DNA of 64,000 nucleotides, taken from positions 124,001 through 188,000 of the forward strand of contig CANGUU010000001.1 in assembly GCA_947457195.1 (NCBI GenBank), read 5' to 3'. The translations under genes and the position numbers were made by a program. The stretch is from Gammaproteobacteria bacterium (GTDB taxonomy: Bacteria; Pseudomonadota; Gammaproteobacteria; Pseudomonadales; Pseudohongiellaceae). The notes beneath the pieces are model-generated. The model searched no databases. It saw nothing but the letters and a program-made list of their open reading frames with translations, and was not told where the DNA came from. The stretch's first letter is position 1, and the number at the start of each line of letters is the position of its first letter. Positions 1,950 to 12,641 of the stretch are shown one piece after another.

Positions 1950-2456
1950 ATGGCCGAGTCCACCACGCTGCGCCTGAATGGCAGCGTCGTCAGCGTGACA
2001 TCCACGCCCGACACGCCCCTGCTTTACGTGCTCACCGACGAACTGCAGCTGCAGGGACCGCGTTTCGGTTGCGGACTCGCCCAGTGCGGGGCCTGCTCCG
2101 TGCTCGTCGATGGCCGCGAACTGCGCTCCTGCGTGACGCCGCTTGCCGCCATCGGCGCCGGCGCCGTTACCACCCTTGAGGGGCTGCCAGCCCTGCTCGC
2201 CGAGCGTCGGCAGCTGGCGCAGGTGCCGGAGTTCACCCCGCTCCAACAGGCGCTGATCGCTGTCCAGGCCATACAGTGTGGTTACTGCAGCAACGGCATG
2301 CAGATCAAGGCGACCGAGCTGCTCATGCAGAACCCCGCCCCCACCGAAGCGGTCATCCGTAGCGCGCTCGACGGTCATCTGTGCCGCTGCGGCACCTACC
2401 CCAAGATCCTCGAGGCGATCCAACGGGCCGCGCAAGCGCCGGGGGGTGCTGTATGA
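1950..2456 (+). CDS. (2Fe-2S)-binding subunit of a molybdenum hydroxylase (IorA-like)
   Basis: Small electron-transfer subunit (168 residues) of a xanthine-oxidase-family hydroxylase. The N-terminal plant-type ferredoxin domain has CGLAQCGAC followed by a fourth Cys in the RSC segment. The C-terminal [2Fe-2S] domain has CGYCSNGM and CRCGT. This length and two-cluster layout match the isoquinoline 1-oxidoreductase alpha / nicotinate dehydrogenase small-subunit group. Electrons would pass from the molybdopterin in the downstream subunit through these clusters. Its stop codon overlaps the start of the large subunit in an ATGA, so translational coupling is likely. The substrate cannot be read from the sequence. 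Confidence 0.9.
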   Translation: MAESTTLRLNGSVVSVTSTPDTPLLYVLTDELQLQGPRFGCGLAQCGACSVLVDGRELRSCVTPLAAIGAGAVTTLEGLPALLAERRQLAQVPEFTPLQQALIAVQAIQCGYCSNGMQIKATELLMQNPAPTEAVIRSALDGHLCRCGTYPKILEAIQRAAQAPGGAV

Positions 2457-4660
2457 CACGCGTCACCCTCACCCGCCGTCAGCTGCTGCAGGCGGGCGGC
2501 ACGCTGGTAGTCAGCTTTCCATTCCTGGCGCAGGCCCAGAGCCGCGAAGCGCAGGCAGGTCCACCGCCGGCTGACCAGATCGACAGCTGGATTGCCATCC
2601 ATGCCGACAACACGGCCACCGTCTTCATCGGCTTTGCCGAGTTGGGGCAGGGTTGCTCGACCGCGCTGCTGCAGGTGGCCGCCGAGGAACTCGACCTCGG
2701 CATGGACCAGGTGCGCAGTGTGGGTCTCGATACCCATGTCACGCCCAATCAGGGGGGAACCTACTCGAGCCAGGCCATGCGCCGGGGCGGGCCGCAGGTA
2801 CAGAGGGCGGCAGCCGAGGCCCGGCAGGCACTGCTGGCGCTGGCCGCCGAGCGCCTGCAACTGCCCGTGAGTAGGCTGCGCGTCGAAAACGGCGTGGTGT
2901 CCGGCAGCGGTGACGACAACGCCTTCGTGACCTATGGCGAACTGATCGGCGACCGGCGCTTCGAGCTGGCGTTCAGCGGCACGGCGCCCGTCAAGTCGCC
3001 CGCCAGCTACAAGCTGGTCGGTCGGCCGCTGCCGCGGCACGACATTCCACCCAAGGTAAAAGGCAGCTATGGATTCATGCACCACCAGCGCCTGCCGGGC
3101 ATGTTACACGGCCGCATCGTGCGCCCACGCGGGCAAGGAGCCTACAAGGACGGCGTGCAGATCCGCAGCGTAGATGCGAGCTCCATCGCGGGCATGCCGG
3201 GTGTGCGCGTGCTCCGGCAAGGCAACTTTCTCGGTGTGGTGGCGCCACGGGAATGGGACGCGGTGCAGGCGGCGGCACGCCTGCGCGTGGAATGGCAGCA
3301 GCCGGCCAGCCTGCCCGGCAACGACGCTCTGTTCGCCCGCATGGAGCAGTCACCGCCAGACGATCGTATCGCCCGCGAACAAGGCGATCTCGCCGCCCTC
3401 GCCGGTGCCCGCGTCGTCAGCGAGTTCACCGGTCAGGGCCCCTACCAGGCCCATGCTCCTTTCGCGCCGAACTGCGCGCTCGCCGACGTGCGTGCCGACA
3501 GCGCCCTGGTGCTCTGCTCCACCCAGGATGTCTATGGAACCCGGGGCAAGCTGGCGGCCCTGCTCGGTTTGCCGGTTCCCGCCGTGAGGGTGCAGTACTT
3601 CGAAGGAGCCGGCACCTTCGGCCATTCGTGCTGGGACGATGCGGCACAAGCCGCTGCCCTGCTCTCGCAGCTGGCCTCGGCGCCGGTGCGCGTGCAGTTC
3701 ATGCGCTGGGACGAACTGGGCTGGGACACCTACGGTCCTGCCCACCTCGGCAAGGTCCGGGTCAGTGCTGATGCCGATGGCAAACTACTGACCTACGAGT
3801 ACGAGGGCTGGCAGCACCACTGGGCGCTGGTGGAGACCACCGAACAGAGTGCCAAGGGCACGCCCGCTGCCGAGTGGCCCGCCATGGCGGCGCAGCAAAT
3901 CAATCCGCTGGTGCTCGGGGGCCAGTACCGCATTCCGCACCTCAAGCTGCTCAACCACCACGTGCCCGGCGTGGACTACCTGAAAGGGGCCTGGCTACGC
4001 TCGCCACTCGACCTGTCGCTGGCCTTTGTATCGGAGCAGGCCATCGACGATCTGGCCTTCCAGCTGGGTCTCGACCCGTGGCAGTTCCGCCAGCGGAACA
4101 TTCTCGATGAGCGCTGGGCCGGTGTGCTCGATGCCGCTGCCAGGGCGGCCGGCTGGCAACCGCGCCCCGCGCAGAGCGTCGCTGGTGCTGGCCCGCTGCG
4201 GCGGGGCCGCGGCATCGGCCTCGGTACCCACCTCGCGTCCTGGGGCGGCGCGGTGGCGGAAGTGGAAGTCGATATGGGCACGGGACGCGTGCGGGTGCTG
4301 CACCTGGTAGGCGCCATCGACGCGGGCCGCGTCGTCAATCCCTCCAACGTCGAGCACCAGATCATCGGTCAGCTGGTGCAGACCGCCAGTCGCCTGCTAC
4401 ACGAGGAAGTGCTGTTCGACACGCAGCAGGTGACCAGCACCGACTGGGCCAGCTACCCCATCCTGCGCTTCGCCGACGCGCCACGCGTCACACCGGTGAT
4501 CGTGCAGCGGCTCGAGGAACCCTCGCTCGGTGCTGGCGAGGAAGTCATGGCAGCCGCAGCCGCTGCCATCGCCAATGCCTTCTTCGATGCCACCGGCAAG
4601 CGCATGAGCGCCTACCCCTTCACCCCGGCACGCGTGCTTGCCACGCTGGGACGAGTCTGA
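2453..4660 (+). CDS. Molybdopterin-binding subunit of an isoquinoline-oxidoreductase-like hydroxylase (IorB-like)
   Basis: Catalytic subunit of 735 residues. The N-terminus (TRRQLLQAGG followed by a hydrophobic stretch ending at AQA) looks like a twin-arginine signal, so the folded cofactor-loaded enzyme is probably exported, with the small subunit carried along. Aldehyde/xanthine dehydrogenase-type molybdenum-binding regions follow. GAGEEV near residue 700 supplies the expected catalytic Glu, and the GKRMSAYPF-type C-terminus fits the family. The usual GGGFGRR-type motif is replaced here by GAGTFGHSCWDDAAQAAA, so this belongs to a divergent subgroup and the reaction is uncertain. The start overlaps the preceding stop (ATGA), and the end overlaps the next gene by 1 nt. 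No cytochrome subunit is adjacent. Confidence 0.85.
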   Translation: MTRVTLTRRQLLQAGGTLVVSFPFLAQAQSREAQAGPPPADQIDSWIAIHADNTATVFIGFAELGQGCSTALLQVAAEELDLGMDQVRSVGLDTHVTPNQGGTYSSQAMRRGGPQVQRAAAEARQALLALAAERLQLPVSRLRVENGVVSGSGDDNAFVTYGELIGDRRFELAFSGTAPVKSPASYKLVGRPLPRHDIPPKVKGSYGFMHHQRLPGMLHGRIVRPRGQGAYKDGVQIRSVDASSIAGMPGVRVLRQGNFLGVVAPREWDAVQAAARLRVEWQQPASLPGNDALFARMEQSPPDDRIAREQGDLAALAGARVVSEFTGQGPYQAHAPFAPNCALADVRADSALVLCSTQDVYGTRGKLAALLGLPVPAVRVQYFEGAGTFGHSCWDDAAQAAALLSQLASAPVRVQFMRWDELGWDTYGPAHLGKVRVSADADGKLLTYEYEGWQHHWALVETTEQSAKGTPAAEWPAMAAQQINPLVLGGQYRIPHLKLLNHHVPGVDYLKGAWLRSPLDLSLAFVSEQAIDDLAFQLGLDPWQFRQRNILDERWAGVLDAAARAAGWQPRPAQSVAGAGPLRRGRGIGLGTHLASWGGAVAEVEVDMGTGRVRVLHLVGAIDAGRVVNPSNVEHQIIGQLVQTASRLLHEEVLFDTQQVTSTDWASYPILRFADAPRVTPVIVQRLEEPSLGAGEEVMAAAAAAIANAFFDATGKRMSAYPFTPARVLATLGRV

Positions 4661-5259
4661 TGACCGATTTACTGCAACCCCTGACCGCTGCCGAACTGCA
4701 GGCACTCGACGACTTCCTGCGTGAACACGCCGACGACCTGCACGAGGCTGATCCGGATGCCGATCCCGGCGTCCTCAACCTTTCCGAGTGCGACGGCATG
4801 CTCTGTGCGCTGGTCAGTGGTCCGACACTGGTGAAGACCGCCGAGTGGGTACCGGCCCTGTGGGGCGACGAAGAACCGGAGTGGCGCAGCGAGGCTGAAT
4901 TCGACCGCATCGTGCAGTTGCTGCAGCGCCACATGAATACCCTCGCAGCCACGCTGCAGGAGGCACCGGACGACTACCAACCCCTGTTCCTCTACGAAGA
5001 CGATGACGGTACGACCTACACGATCGTCGATGACTGGTGTGAGGGCTACCTGCGCGGCGTGCGGCTGGGGGGCAAGGCCTGGAATGCCGGCAAGCCGCTG
5101 ATCGGCAAGCTGCTCGATCCCATACGGGCTTTCAGCAGCGAAACCGAATGGCGCGGCCATGAGCTGTCGGCCGACGACAGCGATCGGCTGAGCGACGCCC
5201 TCGCCCCCAATGCAAGGGCCATCCATGGCTTCTGGCTGGAGCGCCGCCGCAAAACCTGA
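4660..5259 (+). CDS. YecA/UPF0149 family protein
   Basis: Cytoplasmic protein of 199 residues. The LSECDGMLCALVSGP segment near residue 42, the EW-rich central part and the DDWCEGYLRG motif are characteristic of the UPF0149/YecA family. No C-terminal SEC-C metal-binding motif is present, unlike longer YecA members. Its ATG overlaps the TGA of the hydroxylase large subunit by one base, so the two are co-translated. Whether it has a role in maturation of that enzyme is unknown; the coupling is suggestive only. Family function is not established. Confidence 0.8.
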   Translation: MTDLLQPLTAAELQALDDFLREHADDLHEADPDADPGVLNLSECDGMLCALVSGPTLVKTAEWVPALWGDEEPEWRSEAEFDRIVQLLQRHMNTLAATLQEAPDDYQPLFLYEDDDGTTYTIVDDWCEGYLRGVRLGGKAWNAGKPLIGKLLDPIRAFSSETEWRGHELSADDSDRLSDALAPNARAIHGFWLERRRKT

Positions 5260-5313
5260 GCGGCGGCAAGGCAGACGGGCAGCGAAGTCGCTTGCCGGCG
5301 TCGACCGGCTATC

Positions 5314-5333
5314 TGTATCATTTTCGTGATACA
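5314..5333. promoter_or_regulatory. Perfect GntR-type palindromic operator candidate
   Basis: TGTATCA (5314-5320), six bases, then TGATACA (5327-5333) form a perfect 7-bp inverted repeat centred 26 bp upstream of the ATG at 5350. Spaced TGTA/TACA-type palindromes are typical sites for short GntR (YtrA-like) regulators, and the gene just downstream begins with a GntR-type winged helix. Autoregulation is the simplest reading. No second copy was noticed by eye elsewhere in the window. Confidence 0.7.
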
Positions 5334-5349
5334 GAACTGCGGAGCTGCC

Positions 5350-6804
5350 ATGAAACTGAAGATCACCGCCGGATCAGCCACGCCGGCCTTCCAGCAAATC
5401 GTCGAACAGCTGCACTTCCAGATCAGCAGTGGCGAACTGCCCGCCGGCAGCAAGTTGCCCTCCCTGCGCGCACTGGCGAAAAAACACGGTCTCGCCATCA
5501 ACACCGTCGCCAAGGCCCTGCGCCAGCTCGAATTCCGCGGCATGCTGGCGGCGCAACCGCGCAGCGGTTATCGCGTGGTAACCCAGGATACGAGCGTCGG
5601 TCGCTACCAGGCACGCGGTGTTTCCAGCGACAAGACCGAAGTCCACAAAGTGGTCGACAAGCTCGATCACGGTCTGTTCCCCCATGCCTTCTGCAAAATT
5701 ACCGAAGACTTTCTCACCGGCAATCCAGAGTGCTGCAACGTCATCCATGCCGACGGCAGCGGAACCAAGTCGATCATCGCCTACCTCGCCTACAAGGAAA
5801 CCGGCGATGCCTCGGTATTCCACGGCATTGCGCAGGACTCGATCGTCATGAACCTCGACGACCTGCTCTGCGTCGGCGTCAATGGCCGCATCCTCATCGC
5901 CAATACCGTGAACCGCAATGCGCTCAACTGTCCCGGAGAAGTGGTGGCGGCGCTGATCGAGGGCAGCGAGCGCTTCCTGGCCACCCTGCGAGGCCTTGGC
6001 GTGCGCATCTACAGCGGTGGCGGTGAGACAGCAGACGTCGGTGACCTCACCGGCACTCTCGTGGTCGACAGCACTGCAGTGGCGGTGTTGCGCAAGCAGG
6101 ACGTCCTGACGGCCGCCACCATCCGGCCGGGGCTTGCCATCGTGGGGCTGTCGTCCACCGGTCAGGCCAGCTATGAATCCCGGGAAAACAGCGGCATTGG
6201 CAGCAATGGGCTGACCAGTGCCCGCCACGAGCTGCTCAGCTCCTGGTATGCCGAGCAGTATCCGGAGACCTTCGACAGCAACGTGGATCCAAGCCTGCGT
6301 TACTGTGGCCCCTACCGCCTCGAAGATCCGCTGCCCGGTAGCAGCCTCAGCATCGGCGAAGCCCTGCTGTCACCCACCCGTACCTATGCGCCGGTCATCC
6401 AGGCGCTGCTCGACGAGCACCCGGGCCTCATCAAGGGCCTCATCCACTGCTCCGGCGGCGCGCAGACCAAGTGCCTCAAGTTCGGCGAGGGCATCCACTT
6501 CATCAAGGACCGACTGTTTCCGATACCGCCCTTGTTCAAGGTCATCCAGAAGGTCAGCGGTACGGCGTGGAAGGAGATGTACAAGGTCTTCAACATGGGC
6601 CACCGCATGGAGGTCTACTGCCTGCCCCGCGAGGCCAAGACCGTCATCCAGCTGGCGAAGCGCTTCGGCATCGATGCGCGCGTGATCGGTCGCACCGAAG
6701 CCTCCCGGCGCGGCAACCGTCTTAGCCTCAGCCACCGGGGACAGGTCTTCGAATACGGTGATCACCCCACCACCCCGCGCCGTCGGCGCCGCACGTCGAC
6801 ATAG
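5350..6804 (+). CDS. GntR winged-helix domain fused to AIR synthase (PurM-like) domain
   Basis: A 484-residue two-domain protein. Residues about 8-75 form a GntR-type winged helix ([28 protein letters not shown], then a recognition-helix region with [10 protein letters not shown] and a GYRV wing). From about residue 85 the rest matches AIR synthase (phosphoribosylformylglycinamidine cyclo-ligase) of the Bacteroidetes type: [28 protein letters not shown] (133-140), [19 protein letters not shown] (223-232), [10 protein letters not shown] and SPTRTYAP. PurM converts FGAM plus ATP to AIR in purine synthesis. Here the fusion suggests a regulator that senses a purine-pathway ligand, or an enzyme that controls its own gene. 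A perfect palindrome lies just upstream. ATG 5350 was chosen because the in-frame ATG at 5326 lies inside that palindrome. Confidence 0.85.
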
Positions 6805-6890
6805 GCCCGCGGGTCGCTACGGCAACTGGCACTGCCGGTGAAAGCGACTATGTTGGGTAGGCGCCCTGTCTTCGCTGCGGAGTCCCCCCC

Positions 6891-8678
6891 ATGGATGCTT
6901 CCTCCTCCGGCCGGCCTGTGCTGGCCCAGATCCTGCGGATACTCGCCGCAGCACCGGAGTCCACCGCCATCCTCTGTGGCGGCAAGACCTGCAGCAACGG
7001 CGCGCTGCTGGAGAGGACCCAGCAGATTGCCGGGCACCTGCGCAGCCTGGGCGTGGGGCCAGGCCAGTGTGTCGGCGTTGCCATGCGGCGCAGCGCCGAG
7101 GCCGTGGCGGCGCTGCTGGCCTGCTGGTGCTGCGGCGCTGTTTATCTGCCCCTCGATCTGCGACTGCCGCGCCAGCGGCTACTGCGCATGGTGGTACAGA
7201 CCGAGCCCGCCCTGCTGCTGACCCAGCCAGCGCTGCAGGATCATGTCGGCCACTTGCCCGTGCCCTGGCTTGCGGTGCTGCCGGCCGAGGCGGGGCTTTC
7301 GACCTCCTCGCCCGACCCCGCGTGGCAGGAAGAGCCCGCCGCCGGGGCGCCGGCCTACCTGATGTTTACCTCGGGCAGCAGCGGCGAGCCCAAGGGGGTG
7401 CTGCTCAGCCACGGCAATCTGGCGTGCTTTTTCGAGGCTGCCCTGCAGTTGCTGGTGCTGGGGCCGGGCTGGCCGACGCTCGGCTGTGCCGCCTGCAGTT
7501 TCGACATCTGCCTGTTCGAGTGGTTGGCACCGCTGCTGACCGGTGGTGCGTTGGTGCTGGCGACCGACGAGGAGCAGCAGGCGCCCGGTGCCCTGCAGGA
7601 CCTGATCGACCGCTACCGCGTCGGCGTGGTGCAGGCCACGCCTTCGCAGTGGCAGCTGCTGCTGCAGGACTGGAGCCCAGCGCAGCCACTGCAGCTCGCG
7701 CTCAGCATCGGGGAGCCGCTGCCGAAGGGACTGGCCCGCCGGCTGTGCGCCGTGAGTGAGGCCGCGTGGAACCTTTACGGACCCACCGAATGCACCATCT
7801 GGGCCAGCGCCCAACGGCTGGGGCCGTCGCAACTCCACGCGACGGCGCCGAGCGTGGTGGGTCTGGGCCGCGCCCTGCCCGGCTACGGCATCTGCGCGAG
7901 CGGGCCTGACGGCGAGGCGAGTGAACTGCTGATCAGCGGACCTGCCGTAGCGCTTGGCTACTGGCGCCATGCCGAGGCCAGCGAGTCGCGTTTCAGTGGG
8001 ACGCCGGGCACGGCCGAGCGCTGCTACCGCAGTGGCGACTTCTGTCGCCAGGATGCCGAGGGGGGCTGGCACTTCCTCGGTCGGCAAGACAACCAGATCA
8101 AGTGGCAGGGCCACCGCATCGAGCTTGACGAGATCAGCAATCAGTTACTCCGCCACGACTCGATCGCGCAGGCCGCGTGCCTGCTGCGACCGCTTGCCGG
8201 CGACCCGCCAGCGCAGCAGCTGCTCGCCGCCATCGTCTGCCGCCGCGGCGCCCTCAACAAGAACGCCCAGTCCTTCAACCACTGGCTCGCCCAAGAACTG
8301 CCAGCATGGATGCTGCCGCAGCGCTACCTCGTGCTAGACCGACTGCCGCTGACCGCCAACGGCAAGCTCGATCGCAGCGCCTTACTGGCGCTGGCGGCCG
8401 AGCAGCCCCGACCGGAGATCGCGGGGGACTCGCTGGTCAGCCAATTGACCGCCCTTTTCTGTGAAATTCTTGACTTGCCCGCCGTGGCTACCACCGACAG
8501 CTTCTTCGATCTCGGCGGCTCATCCATGCTCAGCGCGACGCTGGTGCTGGCCATGAATCAACGTTTCGGTTGTCGGCTCACCCTGCGCCAGGTACTGCAG
8601 ACGCCTCCCACGGTGCTGTCGCTGGCCAGACTGCTGGAGGAGTCCGGCATCAGCGCCAGCTTGCCAGCACGGCGCTGA
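6891..8678 (+). CDS. NRPS-like adenylation-carrier protein (A-T)
   Basis: A 595-residue protein with an adenylation domain (about 10-500) and one peptidyl-carrier domain (about 515-590). Adenylation motifs are intact: FTSGSSGEPKG, SFDICLFEW (the Asp that binds the amino group is present, so an alpha-amino acid is likely), NLYGPTECTIW, a GD..R segment, GRQDNQIKWQGHRIEL, and the C-terminal catalytic lysine in LTANGKLDR. The carrier motif FFDLGGSSM places the phosphopantetheine serine at residue 545. There is no condensation, thioesterase or reductase domain. GGAG at 6876 gives a plausible ribosome site. The 3' end overlaps the opposing carrier-condensation gene by 29 bp. The substrate code was not resolved. 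Confidence 0.9.
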   Translation: MDASSSGRPVLAQILRILAAAPESTAILCGGKTCSNGALLERTQQIAGHLRSLGVGPGQCVGVAMRRSAEAVAALLACWCCGAVYLPLDLRLPRQRLLRMVVQTEPALLLTQPALQDHVGHLPVPWLAVLPAEAGLSTSSPDPAWQEEPAAGAPAYLMFTSGSSGEPKGVLLSHGNLACFFEAALQLLVLGPGWPTLGCAACSFDICLFEWLAPLLTGGALVLATDEEQQAPGALQDLIDRYRVGVVQATPSQWQLLLQDWSPAQPLQLALSIGEPLPKGLARRLCAVSEAAWNLYGPTECTIWASAQRLGPSQLHATAPSVVGLGRALPGYGICASGPDGEASELLISGPAVALGYWRHAEASESRFSGTPGTAERCYRSGDFCRQDAEGGWHFLGRQDNQIKWQGHRIELDEISNQLLRHDSIAQAACLLRPLAGDPPAQQLLAAIVCRRGALNKNAQSFNHWLAQELPAWMLPQRYLVLDRLPLTANGKLDRSALLALAAEQPRPEIAGDSLVSQLTALFCEILDLPAVATTDSFFDLGGSSMLSATLVLAMNQRFGCRLTLRQVLQTPPTVLSLARLLEESGISASLPARR

Positions 8679-10257
8679 AATCCTGCAGCAGGCGGGCGAT
8701 CTGCTGCTCCGACAGCTCGTCGCTGGCGTAGTCGCAGCAGAGCTCGACCGCGGCGTGTCCGGGGACCACGTCGAGCCGCAGCGGATGCTGGCCCAATACC
8801 GGAGGCAGCCAGTGGACCAGCAGCCGTGCATCGGGAACCTCGAGCCGGGCATGGGGAAAGTTCTGCAGCGCCAGCAGTACGTCGCTGAAGGCGTTGCCGC
8901 TCGGCAAGCGGGCGGTCTGCGTCTCCGCCAGTGCCGGTACGGCCAGGGCTTCCGCGAGGCTACGCTGCAGCGCCGCCTCGACCTCCGCCAGCAAAGGCGG
9001 CAGGCCCGCGGCGGATATCTCCACCCTGCCCTCAGGCCTGGCCAGTCCGACCGGCAGCCGCACCGGTACCACCAGCACTTGCATGAAGCAGCCCACGCTT
9101 TGCTCCTCGGCAGCTGACCGGTTCGCGTGGGGAAACTGGATCAGGTCCCCCTGACCCGGCCACTGCCGTGCCAGAGCCAGACGCAGCGCGGTGAGCAAGA
9201 GTGCAAAAGGACTCACGGCATGGCGTGCGGCGCTGCGCAGCACATGGCGCCACCAGCGAACAGGTAGACGGCGCCGCTGCGACGCCAGCCGAAAGGGCCC
9301 GCGTCGACAAGCCATTTGCAGCGGCTGCACCAGGTCCGCGCCACGCGAAGCGCGCGCCGGGCCCGCCGCAGAGGCGAGGCAGTGGCGCGCAAAGCCCTCC
9401 GCGGGCGCGGGAGCAGTCAGCCTGCGTAGCACGGCCCCGGCATAGGCAGTGACCAGATCCTGCAGCAGGACCGCGCCAGACCAACCGTCGACCAGCAGGT
9501 GCTGGGCCTCCAGCACCAGCAGCGGTGCGCGCCGCCTCCGCTGCAGCAAGCCGGCGGCAAACAGCTGCCGCTGCCAGTCCTGCCGGGTCGGCAAGGCGTC
9601 GAGCGCGTGGGCGAGCGGTACACCGGTCGGCAGGGAGACCAACACCGGCCGGGGCCCGCCGCGGCAGAGGCGCGGGCCGCGGCTGGCCAGGTCGAATTCG
9701 ACGACGCCCGCGAGCAGGGGATGCCGCTGCAGCAACCAGTCGAGCGCCTCGCGTAGCGCGACCTCCTGCACGCCACCGTGCCACTGGAGGACAACGGTGC
9801 CTCGGTAGAGGCCGGCTCCCTGCGCCAGCGCTTCACCGAACCACAGGCCGCGCGCGGTGGCAGGCAGCAAGACGCCGGCCGGAGCTACCGTGGCAGGCGT
9901 TGTTGCTGCCGCCGCTGTGTCGGCCTCAATGCGCGCCACGCCGGCGGCCTCGCTGCCGGCTTGAGCCGTCGCCCTGCCAGCCAAGGCAGACTGTGCTGCC
10001 AGCGCCTGCCCTTGCGCCCACATGCGGTGTGGCGTGCTGCAGTCGGCCAAATGCGTCAGGGCCAGCCGCCAGCCCCAGCGGTCCTGCAGCCGGCTGATCA
10101 AACGGGCGAACTGCAGGGAGTCTCCGCCCACCAGAAAGAAGTGACTGTCGGCATCGATGTCCTCGGTGCCGAGCAGCTGGCGCCACAGCGCAATCAACCT
10201 GTCGAGGGAGGGTTCATCGCTGGCCGGGCCCGTTGTGCCGCTGTCTTCAGCCGTCAT
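8650..10257 (-). CDS. NRPS-like carrier-condensation protein (T-C)
   Basis: A 535-residue protein. Residues 15-90 form a carrier domain with FFLVGGDSL (modification serine at 47), followed by an Ala-rich linker (about 90-128). Residues about 128-535 form a condensation domain. The catalytic motif reads QHLLVDG (252-258): the second, catalytic His is present but the first is Gln. Downstream C-domain features such as NRS and a GCFMQVL stretch are present. The start ATG overlaps the end of the AMP ligase gene by 11 bp, so the two are one transcription unit. The domain could join an acyl group loaded by that ligase to the amino acid on the opposing A-T protein. This is inferred from architecture. 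Confidence 0.85.
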   Translation of the reverse strand: MTAEDSGTTGPASDEPSLDRLIALWRQLLGTEDIDADSHFFLVGGDSLQFARLISRLQDRWGWRLALTHLADCSTPHRMWAQGQALAAQSALAGRATAQAGSEAAGVARIEADTAAAATTPATVAPAGVLLPATARGLWFGEALAQGAGLYRGTVVLQWHGGVQEVALREALDWLLQRHPLLAGVVEFDLASRGPRLCRGGPRPVLVSLPTGVPLAHALDALPTRQDWQRQLFAAGLLQRRRRAPLLVLEAQHLLVDGWSGAVLLQDLVTAYAGAVLRRLTAPAPAEGFARHCLASAAGPARASRGADLVQPLQMACRRGPFRLASQRRRLPVRWWRHVLRSAARHAVSPFALLLTALRLALARQWPGQGDLIQFPHANRSAAEEQSVGCFMQVLVVPVRLPVGLARPEGRVEISAAGLPPLLAEVEAALQRSLAEALAVPALAETQTARLPSGNAFSDVLLALQNFPHARLEVPDARLLVHWLPPVLGQHPLRLDVVPGHAAVELCCDYASDELSEQQIARLLQDFSAVLASWR

Positions 10258-11788
10258 GTGGCGGCGCCGCAGCCAGGGACTGCAGGTACTGCCGCTGCAG
10301 TGTGTCGCGAATGCGCGGCCGGTCGAACTTGCCGGCGGCGTTGCAGGGCAGGGTTTCCCAGAACTCGAGCCAGGAAGGCGTGACATACGCTGCCCCGTGG
10401 CGCAGGTAGAAATCGAGCAGTTCACTGGCGCCGAGCGAGTAGCCCGGCTGCAACTGCACCGCGGCCGCCAGTCGGATTCGCCCATCGTGCAGGCAGAGCG
10501 CAGAAACGACGACCTGCCGCACGGCAGGATGCTGCAGCAGCACCGCCTCGACTTCGCGCGGGTACACGTTGCGCCCGTGGATAACGCAGAGGCTGTCCAC
10601 GCGACCAACGTAAAAGTAGTAGCCGTCGGCGTCGCGGCGCAGACGATCACCAGTATGGAACCAGCCGTCGCGGTAACGCGCCGCCAGCAGAGCGGCCTCG
10701 GCATAGCAGGGTGTGGTGGTGGCGTTGCGCACACAGAGCTCCCCTTCGTCGGCCGGCCTGCCGGTGGTATCGAGCAGGACGGCCTCGCCGAAACGCAGAC
10801 GCCCCACACTGCCCAAGGGCAGTGACGGGTCGTCATGGCGGTTGTATATGCCGGTGAGGCACTCACTCAGGCCATAGGCGTTGTAGACGCGCGCACTGAG
10901 GCGTGCCTGTACCGCGCGAAGCTGCTCCAGGCTCACAGCCTCCCCCATCGCCAGACAGTGCTGCAGCGCGGGCAGCACACCAGTACCCGGGGCCACCGCC
11001 AGCAACTCGGTGAGCAGTCCGGGGACCAGCAGCAGCAACTGTGCGCCGGTCTCCTGCAGCAGCGCCAGGTGATCGCGCGGGTCGCTGCTCTGCAGGAGGT
11101 ACAGGGGTCTGCCCTCCAGCAGGGTCTGCAGGCAGAAGCTGAGCCCCCCCCAGTGCGTCCACGGCAGGATATTCACCCGCGCCGAAGGCCCGGCCACCGT
11201 CGCGCACTTGTCGGGAAAGGCCGCATACAGTTCGGCGAGCATGCTGAGGAAGACCGCCAGTGAGCGCCGGCTGTAGCGCAGCGCCTTCGCCGCGCCCGTG
11301 GAACCGGCGCTATGAAACAACAGGGCGAGATCCGTATGCCGAGCGACGGACGCGGCGACAGCGGGCGCCACGGGCTGTAACCAGCGCAGCCGGCCGGGCT
11401 CGAGTTGCCAGAGTGGACAGCGCAGAGCAGCCAGCCAGTGCTTGCCCGGTAGACTGGCCTCCCGAATGAGCAGCGCCGGGCGCCAGCGCTCCAGCAACTC
11501 CTGCAGCATGGTATCGGACACGTCAGGATGTACGGGCAGCAGCGCGATGCCCTCGCCAAGAGCCGCCAGCAGCAGCGCAAAGCAGTGCGGCAGATTGCTG
11601 CTCTGTACCAGCAGGCAGTCACCGCTGCCGATACCGGCCTCGCGCAGCCAATCTGCCGCCGCATGGCGCGCCTGCTGCAGCGCCTGCCAGCTCCACTGCA
11701 ACCGCTGCTGCCTGCCCTGCACCAGCACGAGGGCTGTGGCGGTCGAGCAGCGCGTGAGCAGTTCCGTCAGTGGATCGACAAAGTCCAT
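10247..11788 (-). CDS. AMP-dependent acyl/aryl ligase
   Basis: Stand-alone ANL-superfamily ligase, 513 residues. Recognisable motifs are a phosphate-binding loop HSAGSTGAAKA (variant of the TSGSTGxPKG consensus), AYGLSEC, GWFHTGDRLRRDADG, GRVDSLCVIHGRNVYPREVE, and the terminal lysine motif NAAGKFDR. The form is closer to acyl- or aryl-CoA/acyl-carrier ligases than to amino-acid adenylation domains. It probably activates a carboxylic acid and loads the carrier domain of the gene that overlaps it downstream. The ATG at 11786-11788 has a good AGGAGG site 11 nt upstream. The exact acid is unknown. Confidence 0.85.
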   Translation of the reverse strand: MDFVDPLTELLTRCSTATALVLVQGRQQRLQWSWQALQQARHAAADWLREAGIGSGDCLLVQSSNLPHCFALLLAALGEGIALLPVHPDVSDTMLQELLERWRPALLIREASLPGKHWLAALRCPLWQLEPGRLRWLQPVAPAVAASVARHTDLALLFHSAGSTGAAKALRYSRRSLAVFLSMLAELYAAFPDKCATVAGPSARVNILPWTHWGGLSFCLQTLLEGRPLYLLQSSDPRDHLALLQETGAQLLLLVPGLLTELLAVAPGTGVLPALQHCLAMGEAVSLEQLRAVQARLSARVYNAYGLSECLTGIYNRHDDPSLPLGSVGRLRFGEAVLLDTTGRPADEGELCVRNATTTPCYAEAALLAARYRDGWFHTGDRLRRDADGYYFYVGRVDSLCVIHGRNVYPREVEAVLLQHPAVRQVVVSALCLHDGRIRLAAAVQLQPGYSLGASELLDFYLRHGAAYVTPSWLEFWETLPCNAAGKFDRPRIRDTLQRQYLQSLAAAPPHDG

Positions 11789-11907
11789 GGGGCCAGGCGC
11801 CTCCTGCGCTACCACCGGCAGCGCGCACCTGCCCGGTGGCCCTGCCTGCAGGATCAGCCTAGTACAGCGCGTGTGCTTTGCCAGAAAAAACCGGCAGCGC
11901 GCCCGCC

Positions 11908-12471
11908 TCAGGTCGGTCGCCGCAGCGGTAGACGGACGACGACGATCACGCCCGGCTCCTCCAAGAGATTCTCGGCGTAGATGCTGCCGCCGTGGAAGTC
12001 GGTGATCAGACGGGCAATGTGCAGACCCAGACCGAGGTGCGGCTGGGTCTGCTGACCCTGCGGCCGCGCCGAGACCATCGAATCGAAGATGCGGTCCTGC
12101 ATTCCCGGGTCGAGCGAGGGCCCCTGATTGCTTACACTCAACACGGCGTCGCCATTGTCGCTGTCGGCCCGCAGGCAGATCGGCTGTCCCGGCGTGGAAA
12201 ACTCCACGGCATTGGCGACCAGCTTGTCGAGCAGTTGCACGAGGTGCTCGGCACTGCCCTCGATGAGCAGCGCCTCGCTGGCGCGCTGCAGTCTGAAGTC
12301 CACCGCAGGGGAGATCTGCCGGCTTTGCTCCACGCAGGCTACCAGCCACTGGTCGAGCAGCATTGGCTGCTTTTCGCAGCGCTGCAGCAGCTGTTCCAGA
12401 CGGGTAGCTTCGCTCATGTTGCCGAGGATCAGGGTCAGGCGACTGATGCCCTCCTCTCTCGTCGCGACTTC
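11908..12471 (-). pseudogene. Truncated sensor histidine kinase (ATPase half only), PdsS-like
   Basis: The recognisable sequence starts at TREEGISRLTLILGNMSEATRLEQ, the end of a dimerisation helix, and continues through a complete HATPase domain: an N box (LLDKLVANAVEFS), SNQGPSLDPGMQDRIFDSMVS, and a G2-type HLGLGLHIARLITDFHGG. The phosphoacceptor His box, sensor region and membrane segments are absent, and only about 200 bp separate it from the next gene. The frame stays open upstream to 12729, but that stretch is low-complexity and runs through a terminator hairpin and the receptor's 3' end. It resembles the kinase of the proteobacterial dedicated sortase system, from memory. A deletion remnant is most likely. 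Confidence 0.7.
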
Positions 12472-12641
12472 GCGCCGCCATCGAGGGCTGGCTGAGGCGG
12501 CCCGCGCAGCAGCGGCGCGTACTGCGGTTGCAGCAAGCCAACACGCAGCACCCCCCGACAGACCGTCGCCGGGGAGCGCCGCGAGGTGCGCTACGCCAAG
12601 GCCAGTTGACTTGCCTCGTGAGAGCGTCAGTGCGAAGGAAT

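Follow-up and report, generated by a model that had tools for sequence, protein, structure and literature searches.

A GntR-PurM fusion that is probably both the AIR synthase of its cell and the repressor of its own gene

Introduction

What is the function of a protein that begins as a GntR DNA-binding domain and continues as an AIR synthase (PurM)? Such a fusion is encoded in the window analysed here, a stretch of 64,000 nucleotides (positions 124,001 to 188,000 of contig CANGUU010000001.1, assembly GCA_947457195.1) from a gammaproteobacterium of the Pseudohongiellaceae. A sequence-only reading of the window had proposed either a regulator that may sense a purine intermediate or the enzyme itself. 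Enzymes doubling as gene regulators are, to our knowledge, few, with examples in the metabolism of vitamins, proline or NAD. In the open-licence literature we have found no description of a GntR domain and an AIR synthase in a single protein; judged by title, the papers mentioning both "AIR synthase" and "GntR" deal with a Pseudomonas that degrades cyanide (three papers) and with the proteome of a milk culture (one). The results described below indicate that the fusion is probably a bifunctional "trigger enzyme," which serves the cell as AIR synthase and is at the same time a repressor dedicated to the gene that encodes it, with a design resembling that of Group II BirA.

Results

Architecture of the fusion

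The gene and its parts are the following:

5350..6804, + strand: GntR-PurM fusion gene, 484 aa (ORF translation, Pfam, alignment)
5392..5577, + strand: GntR winged helix-turn-helix, residues 15-76 (Pfam PF00392, E 5.7e-14)
5578..5601, + strand: short linker, residues 77-84, of variable length among relatives and without separate dimerisation helices (alignment)
5602..6756, + strand: AIR synthase (PurM) domain, residues 85-469, Bacteroidota/Verrucomicrobiota type (PDB sequence matches, Foldseek)

Translation of 5350-6804 (+) gave 484 aa with no internal stop, which bore out the earlier claim of one continuous frame. A GTG at 5326, 24 bases upstream of the ATG at 5350 and in the same open frame, is an alternative start; conservation among the relatives begins at ATG 5350, which has a GGAG 5 bases upstream. 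In hmmscan the head scored 52 bits against a Pfam gathering cut-off of 27, and it was followed by AIRS (residues 128-246, E 8e-7) and AIRS_C (residues 259-455, E 1.4e-8), all three matches exceeding their gathering cut-offs. The winged helix was therefore present as proposed, its Pfam match covering residues 15-76 instead of about 8-75. The AIR synthase motifs quoted earlier were also located in the protein (HADGSGTK at 133-140, DDLLCVG at 170-176 and a third at 223-232).

An AlphaFold2 model of the fusion, built from 62 window and locus sequences, had a mean pLDDT of 90.8 and a pTM of 0.83, with pLDDT values of 67-69 across residues 81-100. Pfam, the model and Foldseek agreed on complete AIRS N and C domains and a PurM fold.

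Type and relatives of the PurM domain

In the PDB sequence search, the C-terminal 380 residues matched the Bacteroidota structures 3mdo (E 3.1e-136) and 3kiz (E 2e-133), the best E among other PurM chains being 1.6e-16. The same two structures, annotated as "AIR synthase related protein" or putative PurM, were the best Foldseek matches of the AlphaFold2 model, the structure prediction that had been suggested for this protein (ranks 1-4, TMt 0.96-0.98, 51-53% identity to the PurM domain). They resemble the PurM domain of the fusion end to end and differ in having no DNA-binding head; the unfused genes examined also lacked a comparable operator. Canonical AIR synthase structures ranked after them, at 18-26% identity. 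The structures thus agreed with the earlier description of the domain as Bacteroidetes-type, whereas among the best 80 loci the nearest unfused relatives were from Verrucomicrobiota (60-66% identity) and from three gammaproteobacterial loci (63-64%), ahead of the more distant Bacteroidota (54-57%). "Verrucomicrobiota/Bacteroidota type" is the safer label for these sequences.

The PurM-domain tree was computed with 89 rows, after dropping L002, L003, L034 and near-identical rows, and included 12 of 30 canonical PurM. It separated canonical PurM from the type of the fusion by a 100/100 split of about 10 changes per site (branch lengths of 5.49 and 4.51 either side of the midpoint root). The phylogeny proposed for the C-terminal domain hence placed it far from canonical PurM, and a grouping with ordinary proteobacterial PurM, which would have spoken against the earlier reading, was not observed. 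With the equivalog model TIGR00878 the window protein reached 102 bits, below the cut-off of 236. A Bacteroides ihuae control matched this model at E 0.001 and was lost at 1e-60; therefore, TIGR00878 seems to miss the PurM subtype of the fusion.

Despite their low identity and the deep split, the fusion and canonical PurM (TIGR00878) have fold and motifs in common. Across 30 canonical PurM, 136 columns are fixed to 95% or more; 49 of these were identical in the window protein, among them DGxGTK, GGETA, SNG (N286), PT..Y and H366. Wherever data exist, the canonical motifs were fixed in 34 fusion rows (one partial) and 54 unfused rows, L066 being left out of this count, and N286 and H366 were present in 34/34 fusion rows. 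By hand count along the 9vnw alignment, these residues correspond to N186 and H239 of the Pyrococcus (P. abyssi) AIR synthetase, whose N186A and H239A mutants are named in PDB titles. In canonical PurM, these motifs belong to the active site.

Recurrence of the fusion

We have collected 34 distinct fusion genes, two of them from Myxococcota-labelled genomes (L024, with a Polyangiaceae title, and L025, with a Deltaproteobacteria title, both falling in Myxococcota). The fusion was present in 22/95 genomes of the relatives sample (split over two contig pieces in G002 and covering up to residue 427 in G058) and in 8/390 genomes of the order-wide sample, in families f1 and f40, the single unfused homologue in f40 being that of G379; the two samples have five fusion- or homologue-bearing genomes in common. 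Among the best 80 of 583 contig stretches encoding a relative, a collection that overlaps the relatives sample in some genomes, there were 24 fusion loci and 55 unfused ones. Twenty-three of the fusions were full length (L004-L025, L064); in L066 the N-terminal fusion was present and the C-terminal part was unalignable, running into the contig end. The fusion thus recurs in many genomes and is not a sequencing or assembly artefact, so the possibility that an error had joined two genes was discarded.

Could the gene encode a plain enzyme with a vestigial GntR head, left by a fusion accident? The abundance of unfused homologues (the 55 above) indicates that the head is dispensable for the persistence of the domain. 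However, GntR (PF00392) was matched in all 25 fusions scanned, together with AIRS in 25 and AIRS_C in 22. In the alignment of the 25 fusions the HTH hallmarks and the PurM motifs were invariant or nearly so, and the invariant GntR residues persisted in proteins down to 59% identity. Moreover, a palindrome described below is kept before fused genes and not before unfused ones. We consider a vestigial head very improbable.

Some candidates needed individual inspection. L034, which tblastn suggested to be an Opitutia fusion (12-454), was rejected when its frames showed an unfused gene. L026 had been labelled unfused in the tree, but its sequence starts where the contig does, and a truncated fusion is most likely. 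Six plasmid records matched, all from about residue 64-86 on and at <60% identity, and no fusion was seen among them. G445, which carries locus L066, has two frames of the same PurM type, of 482 and 406 codons; the 406-codon frame, with its unalignable C-terminal part reaching the contig end, could be a second copy, a decayed copy or an assembly fault.

Replacement of canonical purM

The source genome, which comprises 2.8 Mb in 139 contigs and has a completeness rating of 100%, contained no second match to the fusion protein and nothing above the TIGR00878 cut-off. A profile search for PurN, PurL (long form) and PurH found all three above cut-off. The check for a normal purM, suggested by the sequence-only reading, hence recovered none that was recognisable, which favours the fusion being the enzyme itself.

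The same pattern was found in related genomes. In the 390-genome order sample, canonical purM occurred in 0/9 genomes with the PurM type of the fusion (8 fused, 1 unfused) vs 374/381 others, and neither form was seen in G114, G117, G124, G125, G230, G244 and G347. Among the relatives, canonical purM was present in 2/22 fusion genomes (G040, G058) vs 70/73 others; G006, G032 and G060 had neither canonical purM nor fusion, G006 and G032 belonging to genera whose other members carry the fusion. Fisher tests of this exclusion gave p values of 2e-14 and 2e-15, for two overlapping samples and with kinship ignored. Thirteen further fusion genomes, from among the 24 fusion loci, were checked and canonical purM was present in two, those of L018 and L025; it was recognised in 0/5 genomes carrying the unfused type. 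These distributions suggest that the fusion takes the place of canonical purM, in an exclusion that is near mutual, the fusion not always being the sole copy. G040 has retained its canonical purM beside an apparent purN (by eye) and looks like an intermediate state of the replacement.

Two genomes of family f40, G347 (98% complete, single contig) and G244 (97% complete), had neither canonical purM nor the type of the fusion at E 1e-60; they are perhaps purine auxotrophs or users of another PurM form.

No other recognisable purM accompanies purL, purN and purH in the genome, and we infer from this that the C-terminal domain of the fusion catalyses the conversion of FGAM to AIR. With the TIGR00878 match below cut-off, the proposed activity depends on a remote relationship with known enzymes. 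The PurM domain might instead be non-catalytic and sense a purine intermediate on behalf of the GntR head. There is a model for such repurposing in the MocR/GabR regulators, which carry a GntR head on a large enzyme-like domain of aminotransferase-like fold and sensory function (PMC5320631), and the best NCBIfam matches of the head include MocR-type models. The fusion differs in that its C-terminal domain is AIRS with the PurM motifs kept, those in common with canonical PurM being invariant in fusions. In addition, such a repurposing would leave the genome, which has no second purM, without a recognisable AIR synthase despite purL, purN and purH, and the five checked genomes with unfused relatives also lack canonical purM. 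A purely sensory domain is therefore quite improbable, and we favour a working AIR synthase.

A palindrome over the predicted promoter

The elements upstream of the gene are the following:

5292..5297, + strand: predicted -35 hexamer TTGCCG (consensus scan, 9 of 12 matches, 18-bp spacer)
5313..5334, no strand: candidate operator, perfect palindrome CTGTATCA-TTTTCG-TGATACAG (motif scan, conservation before fusion genes)
5316..5321, + strand: predicted -10 hexamer TATCAT, within the left operator arm (consensus scan)

The candidate operator, CTGTATCATTTTCGTGATACAG, forms a perfect palindrome of 8-6-8 layout and is separated from ATG 5350 by 15 bp. TTGCCG-18-TATCAT was the only sigma-70-like promoter in 5240-6950, a prediction that is weak alone (shuffles gave a mean of 0.4); TTG-type hexamers at 17-18 bp occur in some relatives and not in others. 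When up to 3 mismatches were allowed, the palindrome had one match in the window vs a mean of 0.05 in shuffles. In the source genome, the palindrome before the fusion was the only site with at most 2 mismatches, and the next-best sites had 3 mismatches (n=5 vs 2 in the reversed control).

A related site was found before 34/34 distinct fusion genes (one row per distinct 60-bp upstream stretch, L066 included), scoring 10-14 of 14 arm positions: 14 in 22, 13 in 8, 12 in 2, 11 in L019 and 10 in L023. With spacers of 3-9 tried in the 34 upstream regions, the best spacer was always 6, and 6800 mononucleotide shuffles reached a score of 12 three times and never exceeded it. The 55 unfused homologues were searched more widely, over 350 bp upstream plus 30 and with spacers of 4-8, and none scored 12 or more. 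Their best scores were 8-11, so that by score alone the fused and unfused genes overlap (L033 and L073 at 11; L019 at 11 and L023 at 10). In each of the 22 fusion genomes a single site had at most 1 mismatch, and this site immediately preceded the fusion gene; zero such sites were found in G006 and G032, which have no fusion gene.

L040, L042, L043 and L176 (G379) are unfused gammaproteobacterial relatives of the same PurM type. In the upstream regions of the first three, no operator comparable to that of the fusion genes was seen; possibly the head was lost or the gene was acquired separately.

We have also considered a pathway regulon. In 24 genomes every site beyond that of the fusion itself had 2 mismatches, and with one site per genome there is therefore no pathway-wide regulon. 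Of the 2-mismatch sites, the one that recurs in genus g3 (G033, G023, G028) was inspected and rejected as regulatory, since it lies inside a long coding frame. Rfam, at the gathering threshold, found six tRNAs and no riboswitch in the whole window.

The GT and AC of the operator were conserved in the 32 aligned sites and also in L024 and L025, which are omitted from the base counts because their sites are too close to the start codon. The T that completes TATCAT was retained in 28/32 sites and its mirror A on the right side in 7/32, a difference that fits a left arm serving also as -10 box. Binding over the -10 box should block RNA polymerase. The conserved operator on its own promoter supports a regulatory role for the fusion. 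With a DNA-binding head on the enzyme and a matching palindrome over the promoter, repression of the gene by its own product is very probable. The palindrome could also be bound by a different regulator.

One natural variant bears on this point. The L023 site is a perfect palindrome with altered arms (TGTACTA-N6-TAGTACA), and among the 34 it is the only one with T-to-C in both arms and the only one whose protein has Asp for Asn51. We take residue 51 of the fusion to be HTH position 39, as mapped through FadR numbering. PMC4494728 describes position 39 as a specificity position, which correlates with inner motif bases in YtrA regulators, Asp at this position correlating with G/C in HutC. The joint change in L023 is a hint, from a single event, that ties the head to the palindrome.

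Descent and possible transfer

Within its PurM type, the fusion label requires at least 3 changes on the tree, a number partly due to the mislabelled L026. A branch without support (61/0) had all the gammaproteobacterial fusions on the same side, and they may form one clade; a single clade of all fusions was not rejected (p-AU 0.165). The two Myxococcota fusions grouped with Cerasicoccus (95/87) and have the same kind of operator, which scores 13 of 14 in both. Joint transfer of gene and operator as a unit would therefore be the simpler reading.

Comparison with known regulators

Among the PDB matches of the head are three YtrA-like structures, 6sbs, 3by6 and 4ham. We assign the head to the GntR family on the winged helix, above cut-off, and on the palindrome with conserved GT/AC. 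In YtrA operators the palindrome is long and its GT and AC stand well away from the centre, and YtrA regulators mostly control a single operon (PMC4494728); the GT-N14-AC of the fusion resembles this layout. The C-terminal part of YtrA regulators consists of two helices (about 50 residues) and their targets are mostly ABC-transporter operons (same paper), whereas the fusion lacks the two-helix C-terminal domain and passes from the wing through a short linker to PurM. For the MocR subfamily, this paper reports that no common palindrome was found.

The closest parallel in design is Group II BirA, an enzyme fused to a DNA-binding domain; biotin protein ligase exists with (Group II) and without (Group I) this domain (PMC4016012). 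BirA is an unrelated enzyme and regulates biotin synthesis and transport genes, while the only operator found for the fusion sits on its own gene.

Discussion

The preferred explanation can be described as a sequence of steps. The C-terminal domain would act as the working AIR synthase of the cell (FGAM + ATP to AIR + ADP + Pi). The PurM body is a dimer in known members, and two GntR heads would be paired through it, YtrA-type helices being absent. The paired heads would bind the palindrome over their own -10 box and repress transcription, and the amount of AIR synthase would thus be set by AIR synthase itself (negative autoregulation). Catalysis, dimerisation, DNA binding and repression are deduced here from comparisons of sequences and models.

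Sequence supports both halves of such a trigger enzyme, the catalytic and the regulatory one. Ligand control of DNA binding is a guess: FGAM and ATP would release the DNA, with derepression when the purine pathway runs. A fuller picture would be that of a self-governing sole AIR synthase, which leaves its own -10 region when loaded with FGAM/ATP and so reads the flux in mid-pathway, and of enzyme and operator as one portable, self-regulated gene able to displace an essential gene of its hosts in different lineages (two families of Gammaproteobacteria, and Myxococcota). We find this picture quite possible, if short of probable. Autoregulation by amount alone, with no ligand, would retain the preferred explanation minus the switch and is also possible. 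It is consistent with a single site over the -10 box, and nothing was found that points to a ligand switch. On the other side stands BirA, similarly designed, which switches with ligand state, a counterpoint that is not decisive.

If true, a built-in repressor on a mid-pathway purine enzyme would be a new wiring of a much-studied pathway. A distant form equipped with control of its own would have replaced an essential core gene, and this may help to explain how replacements of this kind succeed. The case lends itself unusually well to testing, since the operator is defined to 22 bp, there is one target, the head can be removed and unfused controls exist in nature.

A further alternative is that the fusion activates its own gene, or that it also controls a neighbour. 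In 12/25 fusion loci compared (L013, L015-L023, L064, L066), hisH-hisF lie upstream on the opposite strand, and IGP synthase releases AICAR, a purine intermediate. HisH and HisF of L015 and HisH of L022 passed NCBIfam cut-offs. The gaps were estimated at about 100-290 bp, with 2.2 kb in L018, which usually places the operator within the shared intergenic region, where a TATAAT-like box directed towards hisH was seen by eye. However, an operator over the predicted -10 box fits repression rather than activation, hisHF are absent from the neighbours of the gene in the window, and no second site was seen by eye in the intergenic stretches inspected. We regard activation or neighbour control as unlikely and retain repression by the fusion of its own gene.

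Besides hisHF, no other purine-related genes were recognised among the annotated neighbour clusters common to at least 4 of the 25 loci. In the window, the region beside the fusion (6891-12544) contains NRPS-like genes, with AMP-binding and carrier protein frames on the + strand and AMP-binding, carrier and condensation-like frames on the - strand, and showed no sign of a tie to the fusion. On its other side, 1950-4660 encodes a [2Fe-2S]-binding protein and a molybdopterin-binding protein, as in xanthine-dehydrogenase-like oxidases, and a relative of the large protein of this region was found near the fusion in four other loci (L004, L005, L007, L011).
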